From Oerskovia rustica (GTDB lineage Bacteria > Actinomycetota > Actinomycetes > Actinomycetales > Cellulomonadaceae): a stretch of DNA of 51,793 nt. The notes below the pieces were generated by a model. It made no database searches and had not been told where the DNA came from. It saw nothing but the letters and a program-made list of their open reading frames with translations. Where the stretch lies: contig NZ_JACSQQ010000001.1 of the NCBI RefSeq assembly GCF_014836555.1, positions 186,842 to 238,634 of the forward strand, written 5' to 3'. Position numbers and translations under genes: made by a program. Numbering within the stretch: the stretch's first letter is position 1; each line of letters opens with the position of its first letter. This document shows, piece after piece, positions 29,641-45,211 of this stretch.

Positions 29641-29705
29641 CCGCTGAGTGCGTGATTCGGCTGCGACTCGCCGGGCGTGTCGCAGCCGAACCATGCACTC
29701 AGCGG
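29641..29705. repeat. Palindromic element family A, copy 1
   Basis: 27-base arms (29641-29667, 29679-29705) pair at 25 of 27 positions, with one of the two mismatches a G-U pair, around the loop TCGCCGGGCGT. The ends are CCGCTGAGTGC/GCACTCAGCGG. It follows the ridA stop and precedes the ATPase promoter, so it may terminate the D-amino-acid operon. Confidence 0.9.
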
Positions 29706-29742: not shown

Positions 29743-30987
29743 ATGATCGAGACGCTCGCCATCGAGGGCTACCGCTCGCTGCGGCACCTCGTCCTGCCCC
29801 TGGGCCGCCTCACGGTCGTGACGGGCGCCAACGGCGTGGGCAAGTCGAGCCTGTACCGCTCGCTGCGTCTGCTCGCCGAGTGCGCGCTGGGCGGCGCGGT
29901 CGGGGCGCTGGCCCGCGAGGGCGGCCTGCCCTCGACGCTGTGGGCCGGGCCGGAGGTCGTCGGGCGCTCGGTGCGCGAGGGCGTGCACCCCGTGCAGGGC
30001 ACGGTGCGCGGTGGCCCGGTCGCGCTGCGGCTGGGCTTCGCGAGCGGCCCGGACCCCCTGCCCGACGGCGCGGCGTCCGCAGGTGCGTCGCTCACCGGCG
30101 CGTACGGGTACGCGATCGACCTGGGGCTGCCGCAGGACGGCGGCGCGTCGTTCGGCCTGGACCCCGAGATCAAGACCGAGGTCGTCTGGTCGGGACCTGT
30201 CCTGCGCCCCGCGACGCTCGTCGCCGACCGGCACGGCCCCTCGGTCCGGCTGCGCGACGAGGACGGGGTGTGGCAGGCGTCAGGGCGCCGGCTGCGGTCC
30301 TTCGACAGCATGCTCTCGGAGGTCGTGGACCCGGTCGGCGCCCCCGAGCTCGTGCTGGTGCGCGAGCGCCTGCGCTCCTGGCGCTTCTACGACCAGTTCC
30401 GCACCGACGCCCTGGCCCCGGCTCGCGCCTCGCACGTCGGCACCCGCACCCCGGTCCTCGCGCACGACGGCGCCGACCTCGCCGCGGCCCTCGAGACGAT
30501 CCGCGAGCTGGGCCTGGCCGACGACCTGGACGCCGCTGTCGAGGACGCGTTCCCCGGGTCGAGCGTGCGCGTGCGGGTGACGGACGACGGCCGGTTCTCG
30601 CTCGAGCTGCGCCAGCACGGCCTGCTGCGCCCGCTGGGCAGCGCCGAGCTGTCCGACGGCACGCTGCGCTACCTGCTGTGGGTCGCCGCCCTGCTCACCC
30701 CCCGGCCGCCCGAGCTGCTCGTGCTCAACGAGCCCGAGACGAGCCTGCACCCCGAGCTGCTGCCCGCGCTCGGAGCCCTGGTCGCCGGGGCCGCGCGACG
30801 CACGCAGGTCGTGGTCGTGACGCACTCACAGGCGTTGGTCCGGGCCATGGAGGACGCGGCGGTCGGCTCGCGAACGGCCTCCCCGGCGCTCGTGCACGTC
30901 GAGCTCGTCAAGGAGCTCGGCGAGACGACGGTCGCGGGCCGCGAGGGACCGCTCGACGAGCCGCAGTGGCACTGGCCCAAACGCTGA
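29743..30987 (+). CDS. AAA-family ATPase (RecF/SMC-like, predicted ATPase)
   Basis: 414 aa. Starts IETLAIEGYRSLRHL, the usual RecF/OLD-like first strand, with Walker A GANGVGKSS (about residues 27-35), a signature-like LSDGTLRYL and Walker B LLVLNEPETSLHP near 325-340, then THSQ. No Toprim nuclease domain follows, so it is not an OLD nuclease; it belongs to the free-standing predicted ATPase group, some members of which act in defence. The stop codon TGA lies inside the family A palindrome. It is alone between two such palindromes. Confidence 0.85.
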   Translation: MIETLAIEGYRSLRHLVLPLGRLTVVTGANGVGKSSLYRSLRLLAECALGGAVGALAREGGLPSTLWAGPEVVGRSVREGVHPVQGTVRGGPVALRLGFASGPDPLPDGAASAGASLTGAYGYAIDLGLPQDGGASFGLDPEIKTEVVWSGPVLRPATLVADRHGPSVRLRDEDGVWQASGRRLRSFDSMLSEVVDPVGAPELVLVRERLRSWRFYDQFRTDALAPARASHVGTRTPVLAHDGADLAAALETIRELGLADDLDAAVEDAFPGSSVRVRVTDDGRFSLELRQHGLLRPLGSAELSDGTLRYLLWVAALLTPRPPELLVLNEPETSLHPELLPALGALVAGAARRTQVVVVTHSQALVRAMEDAAVGSRTASPALVHVELVKELGETTVAGREGPLDEPQWHWPKR

Positions 30988-31044
30988 GTGCATGGTCCGG
31001 CCGCGACTCGCCGGGCGCGTCGCGGCCGGATCATGCACTTAGCG
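30982..31044. repeat. Palindromic element family A, copy 2
   Basis: 26-base arms (30982-31007, 31019-31044), all positions paired if two G-U pairs are allowed, around the loop TCGCCGGGCGC. It contains the ATPase stop codon (CGC TGA) and fills the convergent gap to the glycerate kinase gene, so it may end transcription from both sides. Compared with copy 1, the stem base pair T-A has become C-G on both arms (GGCTGCGAC to GGCCGCGAC and its partner). Confidence 0.9.
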
Positions 31045-38804: not shown

Positions 38805-38867
38805 CGCTGAGTGCGGAGCAGCTGTCGCGGACGGCCTCGATCTGCGACGACCACTTCGCACTCAGCG
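38805..38867. repeat. Palindromic element family A, copy 3 (diverged)
   Basis: 24-base arms (38805-38828, 38844-38867) pair at 19 of 24 positions; the outer ten (CGCTGAGTGC/GCACTCAGCG) are perfect. It spans the convergent gap between trhA and the nitrilase gene and includes the nitrilase stop codon (CGC TGA on the minus strand), the same arrangement as copy 2. The loop differs from copies 1 and 2. Confidence 0.82.
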
Positions 38868-41151: not shown

Positions 41152-41643
41152 ATGACGAACAGCACTCCCCCGTCGGGAACAACCCCGCAGGTCGGCCCCG
41201 ACGCGCTCGACGAGCACGAGAACCCGATCGGGCTCGCGCCGCGGACCCCGGGACCGCAGCCGCCCGCAGGGCGCTACGGACCCCCGTCGACGCCCGCCCG
41301 CCGCCGCCTCACGATCGCGGGCATCGTCGCCGCCGCGGTCGTCGGCGTCGGGATCACGATCTGGATCGGGCTCGGGCAGGCCTCGACCCCGGTGCGCTAC
41401 GACGACTTCGGGTTCAAGGTCATCAGCTCCGAGCAGATCGACGTGACGTTCCAGGTCTCGATGAAGCCCGGCACCCAGGCCGAGTGCACGATCGACGCCC
41501 TCGCGGAGAGCTACGCGCAGGTCGGGACGGTCGACGTCGTCGTCGGACCGAGCGACCAGCTCGAGGGGCGCTACACCGTGAGCGTCGCGACGTCCGAGCT
41601 CGCCACGACCGGCATCGTCGAGAGCTGCCGCGCACTGCCCTGA
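41152..41643 (+). CDS. DUF4307 membrane-anchored protein
   Basis: 163 aa. A Pro-rich cytoplasmic N-terminus (about 50 residues) leads into one membrane helix (LTIAGIVAAAVVGVGITIWIGLG) and an extracytoplasmic domain (RYDDFGFKVISSEQIDVTFQVSMKPGTQAECTIDALAE). This is the actinobacterial DUF4307 pattern, regularly found between mca and greA. The function is unknown. The start has no clear ribosome site. Confidence 0.85.
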   Translation: MTNSTPPSGTTPQVGPDALDEHENPIGLAPRTPGPQPPAGRYGPPSTPARRRLTIAGIVAAAVVGVGITIWIGLGQASTPVRYDDFGFKVISSEQIDVTFQVSMKPGTQAECTIDALAESYAQVGTVDVVVGPSDQLEGRYTVSVATSELATTGIVESCRALP

Positions 41644-41678
41644 CGGGGGAACGGCGGTGTGATGCAGCGGACATTTGG

Positions 41679-41684
41679 TATCCT
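41679..41684 (+). promoter_or_regulatory. Extended -10 promoter of greA
   Basis: TATCCT preceded by TGG gives an extended -10 (TGnTATnnT-like). It lies about 187 bases before the greA GTG, so the mRNA would have a long leader (41690-41870); no recognised riboswitch was seen in it. Confidence 0.4.
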
Positions 41685-41870
41685 GAGGGATTCACGCTGC
41701 CCCAGAAGCATCAGGTCCAGCGAAACCCGCCACGCGGCGTCGGCGACCGGCCGACGTCACCACCCCGGGCAGGCAGCGGAGTCGCTCTCACCCGCACCCA
41801 CTGCCTCACCCTGTGCGGTCGCGTCCACCGACGTCGACCGCAGGAACGCAAGGAAAGGAAGGAGCGAACC

Positions 41871-42353
41871 GTGACCGAGACCAGCGTCACCTGGCTGACC
41901 CAGGAGGCACACGACAGGCTTCAGGCCGAGTTGGCTCACCTGTCCGGTGCCGGCCGCACCGACATCGCCGAGCGCATCGCTGCTGCCCGCGACGAGGGTG
42001 ACCTCAAGGAGAACGGCGGCTACCACGCCGCCCGCGAGGAGCAGGCCAAGAACGAGGCGCGCATCCGCGAGCTGACCGCGAAGCTCCGCAACGTGCAGAT
42101 CGGCACGCCGCCGGACGACGGCAAGGTCGAGCCCGGCATGGTCGTCACGGCCCTCGTGGCCGGCGAGGAGATGGCGTTCCTGCTCGGCTCGCGCGAGATC
42201 GCCGGCGGCACGGACATCCGCGTCTACTCCCCGACGTCCCCGCTCGGCGAGGCCATCAACGGCACCTCGATCGGCGACAAGGTCTCGTACGCCGCCCCCA
42301 ACGGGAACCAGATCCAGGTGGAGATCCTCGCGGCCAAGCCGTTCGAGGCGTGA
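41871..42353 (+). CDS. greA: Transcription elongation factor GreA
   Basis: 160 aa. An N-terminal coiled coil (TQEAHDRLQAELAHLSG, RIAAARDEGDLKENGGYHAAREEQ) holds the acidic tip that reaches the polymerase active site, and a C-terminal FKBP-like domain follows. It restarts backtracked RNA polymerase by stimulating transcript cleavage. GTG 41871 is preceded by AAGGAAGGAG. In actinobacteria it is a usual neighbour of DUF4307 and mca, as here. Confidence 0.95.
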   Translation: MTETSVTWLTQEAHDRLQAELAHLSGAGRTDIAERIAAARDEGDLKENGGYHAAREEQAKNEARIRELTAKLRNVQIGTPPDDGKVEPGMVVTALVAGEEMAFLLGSREIAGGTDIRVYSPTSPLGEAINGTSIGDKVSYAAPNGNQIQVEILAAKPFEA

Positions 42354-42418
42354 CCCACCGCTGACGCGCCGAGCCACCACCGACGGTGGCCGCCCCAGGG
42401 CACGCGCATCGCGACCAC

Positions 42419-42453
42419 GCAGGCCCGGGGAACCTCAGGGTTCCTGGGCCTGC
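42419..42453 (+). terminator. Hairpin terminator after greA
   Basis: Outer stem GCAGGCCC/GGGCCTGC and inner stem GGAACC/GGTTCC with a small asymmetric internal loop and a four-base apical loop. It lies 66 bases after the greA stop. The 441 bases from 42354 to 42794 hold this hairpin and two family B palindromes but no supportable gene. Confidence 0.75.
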
Positions 42454-42521
42454 GTGCGTCCGGGTGCCTGCCGGGCGGCCGGTCGGGCCAGCCTGGACTC
42501 TTCAGCCCGCTCGCGACGGTC

Positions 42522-42583
42522 GGCGAGATGCTGCCGGTTGTCGGGTCCCCCGCGCGTGGTGCGACAACGAGCAGCATCTCGCC
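42522..42583. repeat. Palindromic element family B, copy 1
   Basis: 22-base arms (42522-42543, 42562-42583) with 20 paired positions: outer block GGCGAGATGCTGC, a two-base mismatch, inner block GTTGTCG, and an 18-base loop. Same layout as copies 2 and 3. Confidence 0.9.
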
Positions 42584-42737
42584 GCCGGGGCGGAAGGGCG
42601 CGGCTCACACGACGTCGGCGTCTGTCCACAGGCCGCCCCAGACCCGCCACGCACCCGGTCGCTCTCAGGCAGGATCACGCCATGACGGACGACTCCCCGA
42701 GCCCTCCCCTGTCCCAGCGGTCACCCGCACCCGCGCC

Positions 42738-42795
42738 CGAGATGCTCGCGGTTGTCGGGTGCCCACCTCTCGGGGCGACAACAGGCAGCATCTCG
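42738..42795. repeat. Palindromic element family B, copy 2
   Basis: 20-base arms (42738-42757, 42776-42795) with 17 paired positions: CGAGATGCT outside and GTTGTCG inside, loop of 18 bases. Its last base is the first base of the GTG start of the DUF559 gene, so the palindrome abuts the coding sequence. Confidence 0.88.
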
Positions 42796-43828
42796 TGATC
42801 CCCCTCCCACCCGCACCGTTCCTCGTCACCGACGCGATCGCGGCCGGATGCACCCGACGGCAGGTACGGTCCACGAAGCTCCACACACGCCGTTGCCCGG
42901 GATCCGGATGGACAGGTCCCGGATGCACGACCTCGGAGCGCTCTGCGAAGCCGTCGAGCTCACGTTCTCCGACGGTGATGCCTGGTCGCACACGACGGCC
43001 GCGGCCCTGTGGGGTCTTCCGCTCCCGTCCGGAATCGACCTCACCGCGACCCTGCACGTCTCCCGGGGCCCCGGGAAGTTCCCGAGCGAGGCCGCGGGGA
43101 TCACGGGACACGTCCGCCCCCGGACCAACCACGTCACCCGTCACCGTGGGCGCCCCGTCACGACCCTCGCCCGGACGTGGCTCGACCTCGCCGGCCTCGT
43201 CCGACCCGCCGCGCTGACCGGTCCCGACCAGGGGCGGGTCGACGCTCGTCGCGCCACGATGCCGTCGCTCTCGTCCACGCACGAGCTGTCGTTCATGGAT
43301 CTCGTCTGCGTCACCGACGCGATCGTCGGCAGACGCTGGCCCGCGGTTCCCCGGGAGGAGCTCGCCAGAGCCCTGGCCTGGCACGGCTCCCGGCGCGGGG
43401 CTCGTGCGCTCCGGAGAGCGTTGGCCGCCACCCGGGCGTTCGTCGACTCGCCCATGGAGACCCGGCTCCGGCTCATGCTGGTTGCGTCCGGGTTCCCGTG
43501 CCCTGTCGTCGGAGCCGACGTGTACGACCGGGACCGCTGGGTCGCACGCCCCGACCTGTGCTGGCCCGGGCTACGCATCGCGATCGAGTACGACGGGATC
43601 CACCACCTCACGGACAGGCAGCAGATGCTCGACGACGTCGCGCGCCGAGAGGAGCTGGAGCGCCTGGGTTGGCGGGTCCTCGTGCTGTACGCGGACGACG
43701 TCCTGCGCCGCTGGCCCGCCACGACGGGACGGGTCATGCAGGCCTTTGCCGACCGTGGGGTGGACCCGGGCAACCTCGCAGACGCACCGGACGTCGTAGT
43801 CCGGCCCCGCATCGTCGAGGTCGCATGA
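42795..43828 (+). pseudogene. DUF559 endonuclease-like protein, frameshifted near the N-terminus
   Basis: About 343 aa if repaired. The N-terminal part (IPLPPAPFLVTDAIAAG, then RSTKLHT) is in one frame from GTG 42795; the rest (PLPGIRMDRSRMHDLGALCE to the stop) is two bases out of register. The switch lies at the dinucleotide run CACACAC (42882-42888): removing one CA restores the family's reading frame. The middle region (AWSHTTAAALWGLPLP) resembles the AbiEi-like part of actinobacterial DUF559 proteins, and the C-terminal RPDLCWPGLRIAIEYDGIHH is a Vsr-like PD-(D/E)xK nuclease core. An internal ATG at 42908 could give a 306 aa product. Sequencing error is possible. Family B palindromes flank it. 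Confidence 0.75.
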
Positions 43829-43869
43829 CGCCGACCGGAGGGGCCCCTCCGTCCGCCCCGTTCACCTAC

Positions 43870-43927
43870 CGAGATGCTGCAAGTTGTCGTCCCACGCACC
43901 CCGGAAGCGACAACGGGCAGCATCTCG
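43870..43927. repeat. Palindromic element family B, copy 3
   Basis: 20-base arms (43870-43889, 43908-43927) with 18 paired positions and an 18-base loop. It lies in the convergent gap between the DUF559 gene and ilvA, where it could terminate both. Confidence 0.9.
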
Positions 43928-43990
43928 CGTCCGACTCCGCTCGTCGAGACGGCCGACGGCCGGGCCGCAGAGCGGCAGCCCGTCAGCCCG

Positions 43991-45211
43991 TCAGCCCGTC
44001 AGGACCCGGTACCCCGCGCCCCGTAGCTGCGCGACGAGCGCCTCGCAGTGCTCCTGCCCCTTGGTCTCGACCTGCATGCGCACCCACGCCTCGCCGATCG
44101 CGAGGTGCACGTCCGTGCGGTCGTGGTCGATGTGCATGATCGAGCCGCCGACCCCCGCGATGACGTCGAGCATCTGCGCGAGCGCCCCGGGCCGGTCGTC
44201 GAGCAGGACCTGCATCTGCATGTACCGGCCCGCAGCCGCGAGCCCGTGCCGCAGCACGCGCAGCAGCACCAGGGGGTCGATGTTCCCCCCGGACAGGATC
44301 ACCACGACCGGGCCTTCCCACCCGGTCGGGGCGGCGAGCAGCGCCGCGACCCCGGCGGCCCCCGCCGGCTCGACGACGAGCTTGGCCCGCTCGGTGATCA
44401 TCAGGAGCGCGCGCGACAGCTCGTCCTCGGTCACCGTCCGCACCTCGGCGCCCAGCTCGGACACGATCGAGAACGGCACGGGGCCCGGGGTGCCCACCGC
44501 GATGCCGTCGGCCATGGTCGAGCGGGCGAGCGACGTCGTCGGGACGCCTGCGGCGAGCGAGCCCGGGTACGCCGCAGCCCGCGCGGCCTGGACCCCGACG
44601 ACCTTGACGTGCGGCGCGACCTCGGCCATGGCCGCCGCGACCCCCGCGACCAGGCCGCCGCCGCCGAGCGGCATGACGACCGTGCGGACGTCGGGGACCT
44701 GCTCGAGGATCTCGAGCGCGATCGTGCCCTGGCCCGCGACGACGTCAGGGTGGTCGAACGGGTGGATGAACACCGCGCCCGTGCGCTCGGCCTCGGCCTT
44801 CGCAGCCGCGAGCGTCTCGTCGACGTCGACGCCGACCAGGCGCACCTCGGCCCCGTACTCCCGGGTCGCGGCGACCTTGGGCAGCGCGGCGTCGACCGGC
44901 ATGTAGACGACGGCCTGGATACCGAGCAGCCCCGCCGCGAACGCGACGCCCTGGGCGTGGTTCCCGGCGCTCGCCGCGACGACGCCGCGCGCCTTCTCCT
45001 CGGCCGAGAGCCGGGCCATGCGGATGTACGCGCCGCGGATCTTGAACGACCCGGCGCGCTGGAGGTTCTCGCACTTGAGCGCCACGGGCACGCCCGTGAC
45101 CTGGCTGAGCGCGCGGCTCGTCTGGACGGGGGTCCGGTAGGCGACGCCGTCGAGCATGCGGGCGGCGTCGCGGATGCTGTCGAGCGTCACGCCGGGCTGA
45201 GCGAGGGTCAC
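43991..45211 (-). CDS. ilvA: Threonine ammonia-lyase (biosynthetic type with ACT domain)
   Basis: 406 aa PLP enzyme that deaminates threonine to 2-oxobutyrate, the first step to isoleucine. The PLP-Lys motif GSFKIRGAY is near residue 58, the phosphate loop GGGGLVAG near 180, and SGGNIDP near 310. A single C-terminal ACT domain (MQMQVLLDDRPGALAQMLDVI) matches the short allosteric/catabolic-like form common in actinobacteria. GTG 45211 overlaps the AI-2E gene stop (GTGA). Third gene of the metB operon. Confidence 0.94.
   Translation of the reverse strand: MTLAQPGVTLDSIRDAARMLDGVAYRTPVQTSRALSQVTGVPVALKCENLQRAGSFKIRGAYIRMARLSAEEKARGVVAASAGNHAQGVAFAAGLLGIQAVVYMPVDAALPKVAATREYGAEVRLVGVDVDETLAAAKAEAERTGAVFIHPFDHPDVVAGQGTIALEILEQVPDVRTVVMPLGGGGLVAGVAAAMAEVAPHVKVVGVQAARAAAYPGSLAAGVPTTSLARSTMADGIAVGTPGPVPFSIVSELGAEVRTVTEDELSRALLMITERAKLVVEPAGAAGVAALLAAPTGWEGPVVVILSGGNIDPLVLLRVLRHGLAAAGRYMQMQVLLDDRPGALAQMLDVIAGVGGSIMHIDHDRTDVHLAIGEAWVRMQVETKGQEHCEALVAQLRGAGYRVLTG

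Follow-up and report, generated by a model that had tools for sequence, protein, structure and literature searches.

The REP/REPIN systems consist of a RAYT gene bracketed by palindromes that are dispersed in the genome and whose type follows the enzyme lineage (PMC8266576, PMC3116915, PMC3733652). The REPs of E. coli have been recognised as imperfect, bulged palindromes (PMC8266576). RAYT genes can also be flanked by TIRs, an arrangement known as the TIRtron or TIRYT, and some of these repeats form families (PMC3733652). I-Bth0305I, a Vsr-like EDxHD nuclease, dimerises on a target of nearly 60 bp (PMC3943268), and MTES_1575 has been described as a Vsr-type domain (PMC3710099). In the AbiE type IV toxin-antitoxin system, AbiEi antitoxins autoregulate by binding inverted repeats (PMC7319586).

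The window, meaning the whole stretch of 51,793 nucleotides of Oerskovia rustica DNA that was analysed, contains a DUF559/MTES_1575-type gene surrounded by palindromes. It resembles a REPtron in that one gene stands between palindromes of a kind dispersed in the genome, copies lie after genes, the palindrome type follows the enzyme lineage, and the palindrome is imperfect with a conserved mismatch or bulge. It differs in that the predicted enzyme is a PD-(D/E)xK/EDxHD nuclease whereas that of the REPtron is an HUH tyrosine enzyme, the palindromes measure 53-77 bp rather than 20-40, the GTAG/CGTC tag is absent, and forward matches number 6-19 in each Oerskovia genome and, for one pattern, 7-62 across five of the Jiangella genomes, rather than hundreds. 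Since the REP tags are absent and the enzyme is not of the HUH type, the system is not regarded as a member of REP/RAYT, although it is REPtron-like in anatomy. The TIRtron likewise has a repeat-bracketed gene and repeats that partly form families, but its enzyme belongs to another family, and each flanking repeat here is a full hairpin. The nuclease domain fold is shared with I-Bth0305I, whose nearly 60-bp target is close in length to the palindromes, whereas the gene described here lies between two palindromes and has an AbiEi-like N-terminal half. That half matches profiles of AbiEi, itself a binder of inverted repeats, but is fused to a nuclease; no AbiEii-like gene was seen among the window neighbours, whose ORFs were read by eye and carry the labels that we presume for them.

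It is considered rather probable that these loci are palindrome-nuclease units that work in a REPtron-like way with an unrelated enzyme. No description of DUF559/MTES_1575 genes paired with palindromes was found in searches of open-access full text. To our knowledge, small PF18741-type genes have no assigned role.

The window locus and the fold of its palindromes

The features of the window that bear on the palindromes are as follows.

29641..29705, no strand assigned: family A palindrome (A1), of the family that flanks DUF559 genes in four related genomes
30982..31044, no strand assigned: family A palindrome (A2), at the stop codon of gene 29743-30987
38805..38867, no strand assigned: decayed family A' palindrome, with the outer block of family A and an interior resembling that at locus L049
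42416..42456, + strand: hairpin after the greA-like gene, unrelated to the palindrome-nuclease system
42524..42581, no strand assigned: palindrome B1, 58 bp, loop 18, an extra copy between the greA-like gene and the unit
42738..42795, no strand assigned: palindrome B2, 58 bp, loop 18, lying 5' to the DUF559 gene
42804..43828, + strand: DUF559/MTES_1575-type gene, with an N-terminal piece at 42804-42887 and the remainder from 42872, in different frames
43870..43927, no strand assigned: palindrome B3, 58 bp, loop 18, on the 3' side of the DUF559 gene

The three family B elements have 20-base arms around an 18-base loop (58 bp each), and all share the outer block CGAGATGCT, the inner block GTTGTCG and the loop length. 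The full pattern gives six matches in the window (three elements on both strands) against none in 100 shuffles, and the three hairpins of common build that an earlier note on this DNA had placed around the gene are thus real. Its coordinates for B2 and B3 hold, whereas its 42522-42583 for the first element adds two flanking pairs. The second copy was also said simply to abut the start codon of the gene; this needs correction, as the reading frame changes at 42872-42887. With a frame shift between these positions the gene looks broken, or else the assembly is in error, and the unit in the window is probably a decaying member of the palindrome-nuclease units. Pfam assigns the gene to DUF559 at 21.9 bits (cut-off 20.6), while MTES_1575, at 26.3 bits, stays under its cut-off of 38.2. 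In three relatives, the place equivalent to B3 is occupied by a palindrome that shares the outer block but differs in its interior; the window protein is 59-60% identical to the proteins of these relatives, which are 79-82% identical among themselves. The gene upstream of B1 is presumably greA-like, and the hairpin at 42416..42456, which is kept in two relatives, is probably its terminator. The sole Rfam match in 41500-45000 was a sub-threshold RT-13 (22.6 bits vs 69.1), and megablast of the locus against plasmids gave no match.

Family B has nine members in the whole genome, three at the window locus and six elsewhere. The outcome that the earlier note named as refuting, with the palindrome confined to this locus or equally frequent beside unrelated genes and without insertion polymorphism, was not observed; yet six of the nine copies lie away from the DUF559 locus, as is expected of dispersed REP-like copies. 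In two members the outer block is CGAGATCGGG in place of CGAGATGCT, with both arms altered. A third has the inner block GTCGTCG/CGACGAC, and the same site in a related genome reads GTGGTCG/CGACCAC, again with both arms altered. In an alignment of 16 copies from three genomes, some of which represent one site in more than one species, 93.1% of cells are paired, and five pairs are altered on both sides against 0-2 when the alignment is slid. Inner-pattern matches outside the genus (221 family genomes) at L036 and L037 were set aside as chance, L036 having another palindrome and L037 none, and L024 was likewise excluded from family B.

Family A behaves similarly: across 42 copies 89.4% of cells pair, and 13 pairs are altered on both sides against 2-5 in slid controls (in these and in the polarity, position and T-run counts below, the same site can be included from several species). 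One position close to the tip fails to pair in 34 of the 42 copies (A.A in 15, T.T in 15, other mismatches in four), and the middle base is C in all A.A copies and G in all T.T copies. One asymmetric element in two orientations accounts for this pattern, that is, a polar palindrome. Quasi-palindromes are known to be corrected by template switching, and mutation alone could be proposed as the source of perfect stems and alike flanking copies, with template switching perfecting the stems and recombination homogenising neighbouring copies. The abundance of double changes in stems agrees with such a proposal, but correction should erase the A.A (or T.T) mismatch, which is retained in 30 of 42 copies in one polar form, and the tie to DUF559 is left unexplained; this explanation is highly improbable. 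At 50 stem ends of 25 family A copies GTAG was never found beside the stem, and CGTC occurred four times against 3.65 expected.

The bracketed protein

Modelling and profile searches show the protein to be an AbiEi-like N-terminal half joined to a predicted nuclease domain of the Vsr/EDxHD homing-endonuclease type. The model of the protein from L048 (72 sequences) has a mean pLDDT of 93.7 and a pTM of 0.89. Its best meaningful PDB match in Foldseek is the catalytic domain of I-Bth0305I (3r3p, probability 1.00), with TM values of 0.71 and 0.72 by target length and E values of 0.036 and 0.089; no Foldseek match of this model had an E value as low as 0.001. A chain of a mitochondrial ribosome that ranked first, at an rmsd of 16.9, was set aside. 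A profile search gave 3r3p at E 0.012 and 3hrl at E 0.018, and AbiEi profiles matched the N-terminal half in all five proteins scanned (best 3e-12). Residues E203, D236, E247 and D249 are invariant and H253 and D263 nearly so; they presumably map onto the EDxHD motif. Considered with the target of I-Bth0305I, the AbiEi matches and the nuclease fold suggest that the N-terminal half reads the DNA and the C-terminal domain cuts it. No Y1 transposase appeared in the Pfam results for eight queries, and the one protein modelled has a nuclease-type fold. The defence models ProA, Hhe and PDC-S37 matched weakly, mostly through the nuclease domain.

Palindromes at DUF559 genes across Actinobacteria

The unit consists of a palindrome, the gene and a second palindrome; of 31 units that were measured, 26 span 1053-1128 bp, and the full range is 879-1351 bp. 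The palindromes measure 53-77 bp (64 flanking copies), and the two copies of a locus are 0.89 identical (0.75-1.00, n = 32). Between loci, the 3' palindromes are on average 0.41, 0.45 and 0.57 alike at protein identities of 20-35, 35-45 and 45-55%, and 0.65 and 0.82 alike at higher identities (Spearman 0.39 between protein and palindrome similarity, uncorrected for ancestry). The palindrome thus differs between DUF559 lineages. Two further small DUF559 genes were detected in the genome of the window, and each has a long, near-perfect palindrome of different sequence at its 3' end.

A PF18741 search of seven Oerskovia genomes returned 28 matches. A conserved protein of ~1370-1385 aa accounts for seven of these, and an 873-aa frame for one. 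Among the remaining 20 loci, the window's included, 18 have a palindrome at one or both ends, and L063 and L064 have none reaching threshold. The search was incomplete, as a gene of O. turbata (L079) surfaced only in a scan by protein alignment. Palindrome type tracks protein subfamily in the genus, the other types being distributed as follows.

Family A: loci L046-L048 and L052
Family A': locus L049
Family C: loci L050, L051, L053, L054, L056 and L059
Family B': loci L055, L057 and L060
Family D: locus L061
Family E: locus L062
Family F: locus L065

In the protein tree, L061, with its D-type palindromes, groups with L063, while L063 and L064 are without a palindrome; loss is possible there. 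The O. turbata gene (contig6.1) has a perfect palindrome with 21-bp arms upstream (GTGCGGAGTTCTTGTGCGACA), and as the final 40 query residues are unmatched it may be damaged. At L043 and L044 a long palindrome with TTTCTGCGTAGCCACCAC in its arm lies 367 and 441 bases past the stop of the ~1380-aa PF18741 protein, and is outside the DUF559 families. The A' unit at L049 (G006 C8:180747-183929) has a DUF559 gene with an internal segment missing (229 aa left), and keeps two near-perfect palindromes despite the shortened gene.

A first wider sample took the best 80 of 432 relatives from a genome scan by protein alignment, with flanks of up to 4 kb; seven of the 80 loci duplicate loci of the genus search. 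With hairpins called at a score of 14 or more and a loop of up to 25, 44 of 78 genes had a strong 3' hairpin (0.0126 expected per window) and 44 of 73 a 5' one (0.0247 expected); the background comes from far flanks, where 498,620 bp contained 30. Both ends had one in 32 of 71 cases, and all 32 pairs of partners have a 9-mer in common. At a score of 20, 26 of 78 genes still have a 3' hairpin (0.0008 expected per window). Terminator-like hairpins make up two of the 44 hits on the 3' side, leaving 42, and four of the 44 on the 5' side, these being the Curtobacterium loci L116, L122, L127 and L141. The stop codon lies wholly within the palindrome in 31 of the 42 non-terminator cases on the 3' side and is TGA in 29; among all 80 genes, 69 end in TGA. 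A recurring GAAGGGCCCCGCACGC hairpin, ~290-360 bases 5' of the protein match at the Curtobacterium loci L116, L122, L127, L139, L141 and L142, is terminator-like and unrelated to the units.

Matched pairs occur in Oerskovia (7/9), Promicromonospora (4/4), Cellulomonas (5/11), Jiangella (4/8), Cellulosimicrobium (3/7), Leifsonia (2/3), Sanguibacter (1/3), Isoptericola (1/1), Puerhibacterium (1/1), an uncultured Cellulomonadaceae (1/1), Propionibacteriaceae (1/6) and Curtobacterium (2/17), and eight further labels gave 0/9. The enrichment beside DUF559 genes that the earlier note proposed to look for is seen at gene ends in several actinobacterial genera. In the same sample a 3' hairpin reaching the threshold is lacking at 34 of 78 loci, and 24 of 80 have one at neither end; about a dozen of those 24 show weaker or longer-loop palindromes by eye, a setting without a hairpin control. 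These loci, like the small share of matched pairs in Curtobacterium, count against the palindrome-nuclease unit.

A second sample comprised 40 standalone genes, taken near list order among the matches listed for 148 genomes of the class, with small contigs and contig edges skipped. At a score of 13 or more and a loop of up to 45, hairpins were found on the 3' side of 12 genes, on the 5' side of 14 and on both sides of nine, with eight matched pairs; the far flanks held five in 97,506 bp, or 0.011 expected per 3' window. Two loci overlap with the first sample (L347 = L088 and L351 = L126), and the 38 genes left without them give 11, 12, eight and seven, respectively. As a control, large proteins sharing the nuclease domain had a hairpin in two of 38 cases. 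A PF18741-type match is present in 86 of the 148 genomes sampled from the class, large proteins counted. The DUF559 protein gave one weak match in phages and seven weak matches in plasmids, so these genes appear to be mainly chromosomal. Mapped on the protein tree, the matched-pair label takes 19 changes; shuffled labels average 22.9, and 29 of 500 shuffles needed as few. Weaker palindromes, labelled in the same way, show no clustering, and in view of these results no number of origins is claimed.

Dispersed copies and their possible spread

Dispersal was tested in Oerskovia and Jiangella, and in both genera the palindrome families are dispersed and intergenic. Each of seven Oerskovia genomes has 6-19 forward and 5-17 reverse matches to family A, with none for the reversed-pattern control, and the window palindromes at 29641 and 30982 are members of this dispersed family. 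In Jiangella, where up to two mismatches were allowed, one variant gave forward/reverse counts of 2/2 in J. asiatica, and the five other genomes of the genus had 62/46 (which include related families), 19/18, 10/9, 7/12 and 21/19. The flank variant of J. asiatica's own gene gave 15/15 in that species and at most 9/11 in the others, and within one mismatch it is absent from all nine other genomes; controls, and four genomes of other genera, gave 0-1. This enrichment of the species' own variant indicates that the dispersed type matches the flanks of the resident gene. Family A copies are also present in two Oerskovia genomes (G000 and G004) in which the PF18741 search found no A-type gene, which counts against a strict link between gene and palindrome.

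The position of the dispersed copies bears on two further explanations. Each of the 26 family A copies that were classed (about 15 distinct sites in three genomes) has the 3' end of a called gene on at least one side: 11 lie between convergent genes, eight between genes of the same direction and seven have one side lacking a called gene. No copy falls within a called gene, and none separates divergent genes (simple ORF caller). Such a distribution, together with the stop codons inside the palindromes at DUF559 3' ends, would suit shared transcript-end elements, either terminators or protectors of mRNA 3' ends, that merely insulate the DUF559 gene. Against this, none of 60 stem ends is followed by five or more T in 10 bases (background 0.0028), palindromes are present on the 5' side of the gene too, and neither the way in which palindrome type follows DUF559 lineage nor the scarcity of such hairpins in far flanks is explained. 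The lack of T-runs weakens the simple terminator considered in the earlier note, though the palindromes may act at transcript 3' ends in another way; overall, this explanation is unlikely. Slightly less likely again are operators bound by the AbiEi-like half for control of its own gene, with the dispersed copies as other regulated sites or decoys. The AbiEi-like profile matches, the autoregulation of AbiEi antitoxins through inverted repeats (PMC7319586) and the 5'-side hairpins of the first sample all fit such a role, but the dispersed copies stand at gene 3' ends and never between divergent genes, and the 3' palindrome and the nuclease domain are left unexplained.

Comparison of orthologous sites, proposed earlier as a check for clean insertions, does reveal differences in presence and absence, several of which resemble partial loss. 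The L253 site is filled in at least G000, G002 and G004, reduced to a stub in G003 and empty in G005, and the L231 site is filled in G003 and G005 and unfilled in G000, G006 and G001. Because several absences leave stubs, loss appears to be common. At the window A1 site and the L264 site, G003 and G005 have an A' interior where others have an A interior, and at the home locus of the A-type unit G004 has one palindrome on its own (L262) and G006 has an A' unit (L049). A- and B-type units occupy the same loci across the Oerskovia genomes compared, as expected of inherited genes. Alignments of six family A sites, inspected visually, showed no target duplication such as would be expected of a MITE, an internally deleted transposon derivative, and no insertion was caught in the act among the sites compared.

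Gene 29743-30987 of the window, which we take to be of the AAA-ATPase type, stands between A1 and A2, the second of which contains its stop codon. In G001 the gene is missing and a single palindrome remains, so palindrome pairs may carry or lose other genes. This second gene type between family A palindromes, and the REP-like character of palindromes that are dispersed, polar and mismatch-bearing, would agree with spread by another transposase (e.g. RAYT), the DUF559 gene being cargo or passenger. Against this, it is one gene family that stands between palindromes of differing sequence in several genera, and such constancy would not be expected of a passenger; this explanation is improbable.

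Dispersed palindromes and a bracketed nuclease gene suggest a selfish element, and the palindrome-nuclease unit is preferred here. The REPtron-like reading of the earlier note extends beyond this locus as to anatomy (enrichment at DUF559 gene ends, matched flanks and dispersal); movement or guarding of the palindromes by the nuclease is inferred. A metal-dependent nuclease is incapable of HUH strand transfer, so spreading would need host repair. In the proposed mechanism the N-terminal half, perhaps dimeric, would recognise its lineage's own ~60-bp palindrome, the nuclease would cut the palindrome or an adjoining site, and host break repair would then fill the cut with a copy of a palindrome or of the entire unit. 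Palindromes could in this way spread to gene 3' ends, where they are tolerated, both flanking copies would stay alike, and one palindrome type could replace another at the same site. The nearly 60-bp target of I-Bth0305I (PMC3943268) is close to the 53-77 bp of the palindromes. There is about an even chance that a homing-endonuclease-type enzyme with a domain that reads inverted repeats fills the role of RAYT, spreading its own ~60-bp palindrome by cutting, repair and same-site conversion, and giving rise to REP-like families across Actinobacteria without HUH transposases.

If the link holds, it would provide a role for the small members of the PF18741-type genes, a group common in the class, and would explain dispersed palindrome families without a known enzyme. 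REP-like populations could then be founded by a nuclease incapable of HUH chemistry. Some REP classes are apparently without a dedicated transposase (PMC3733652), and the link would imply that the enzyme dedicated to a palindrome can be something other than a transposase. J. aurantiaca (G221) also has another dispersed family of palindromes, GTTGATCTTGGAGTAACCGG, whose arm spacing is 52.
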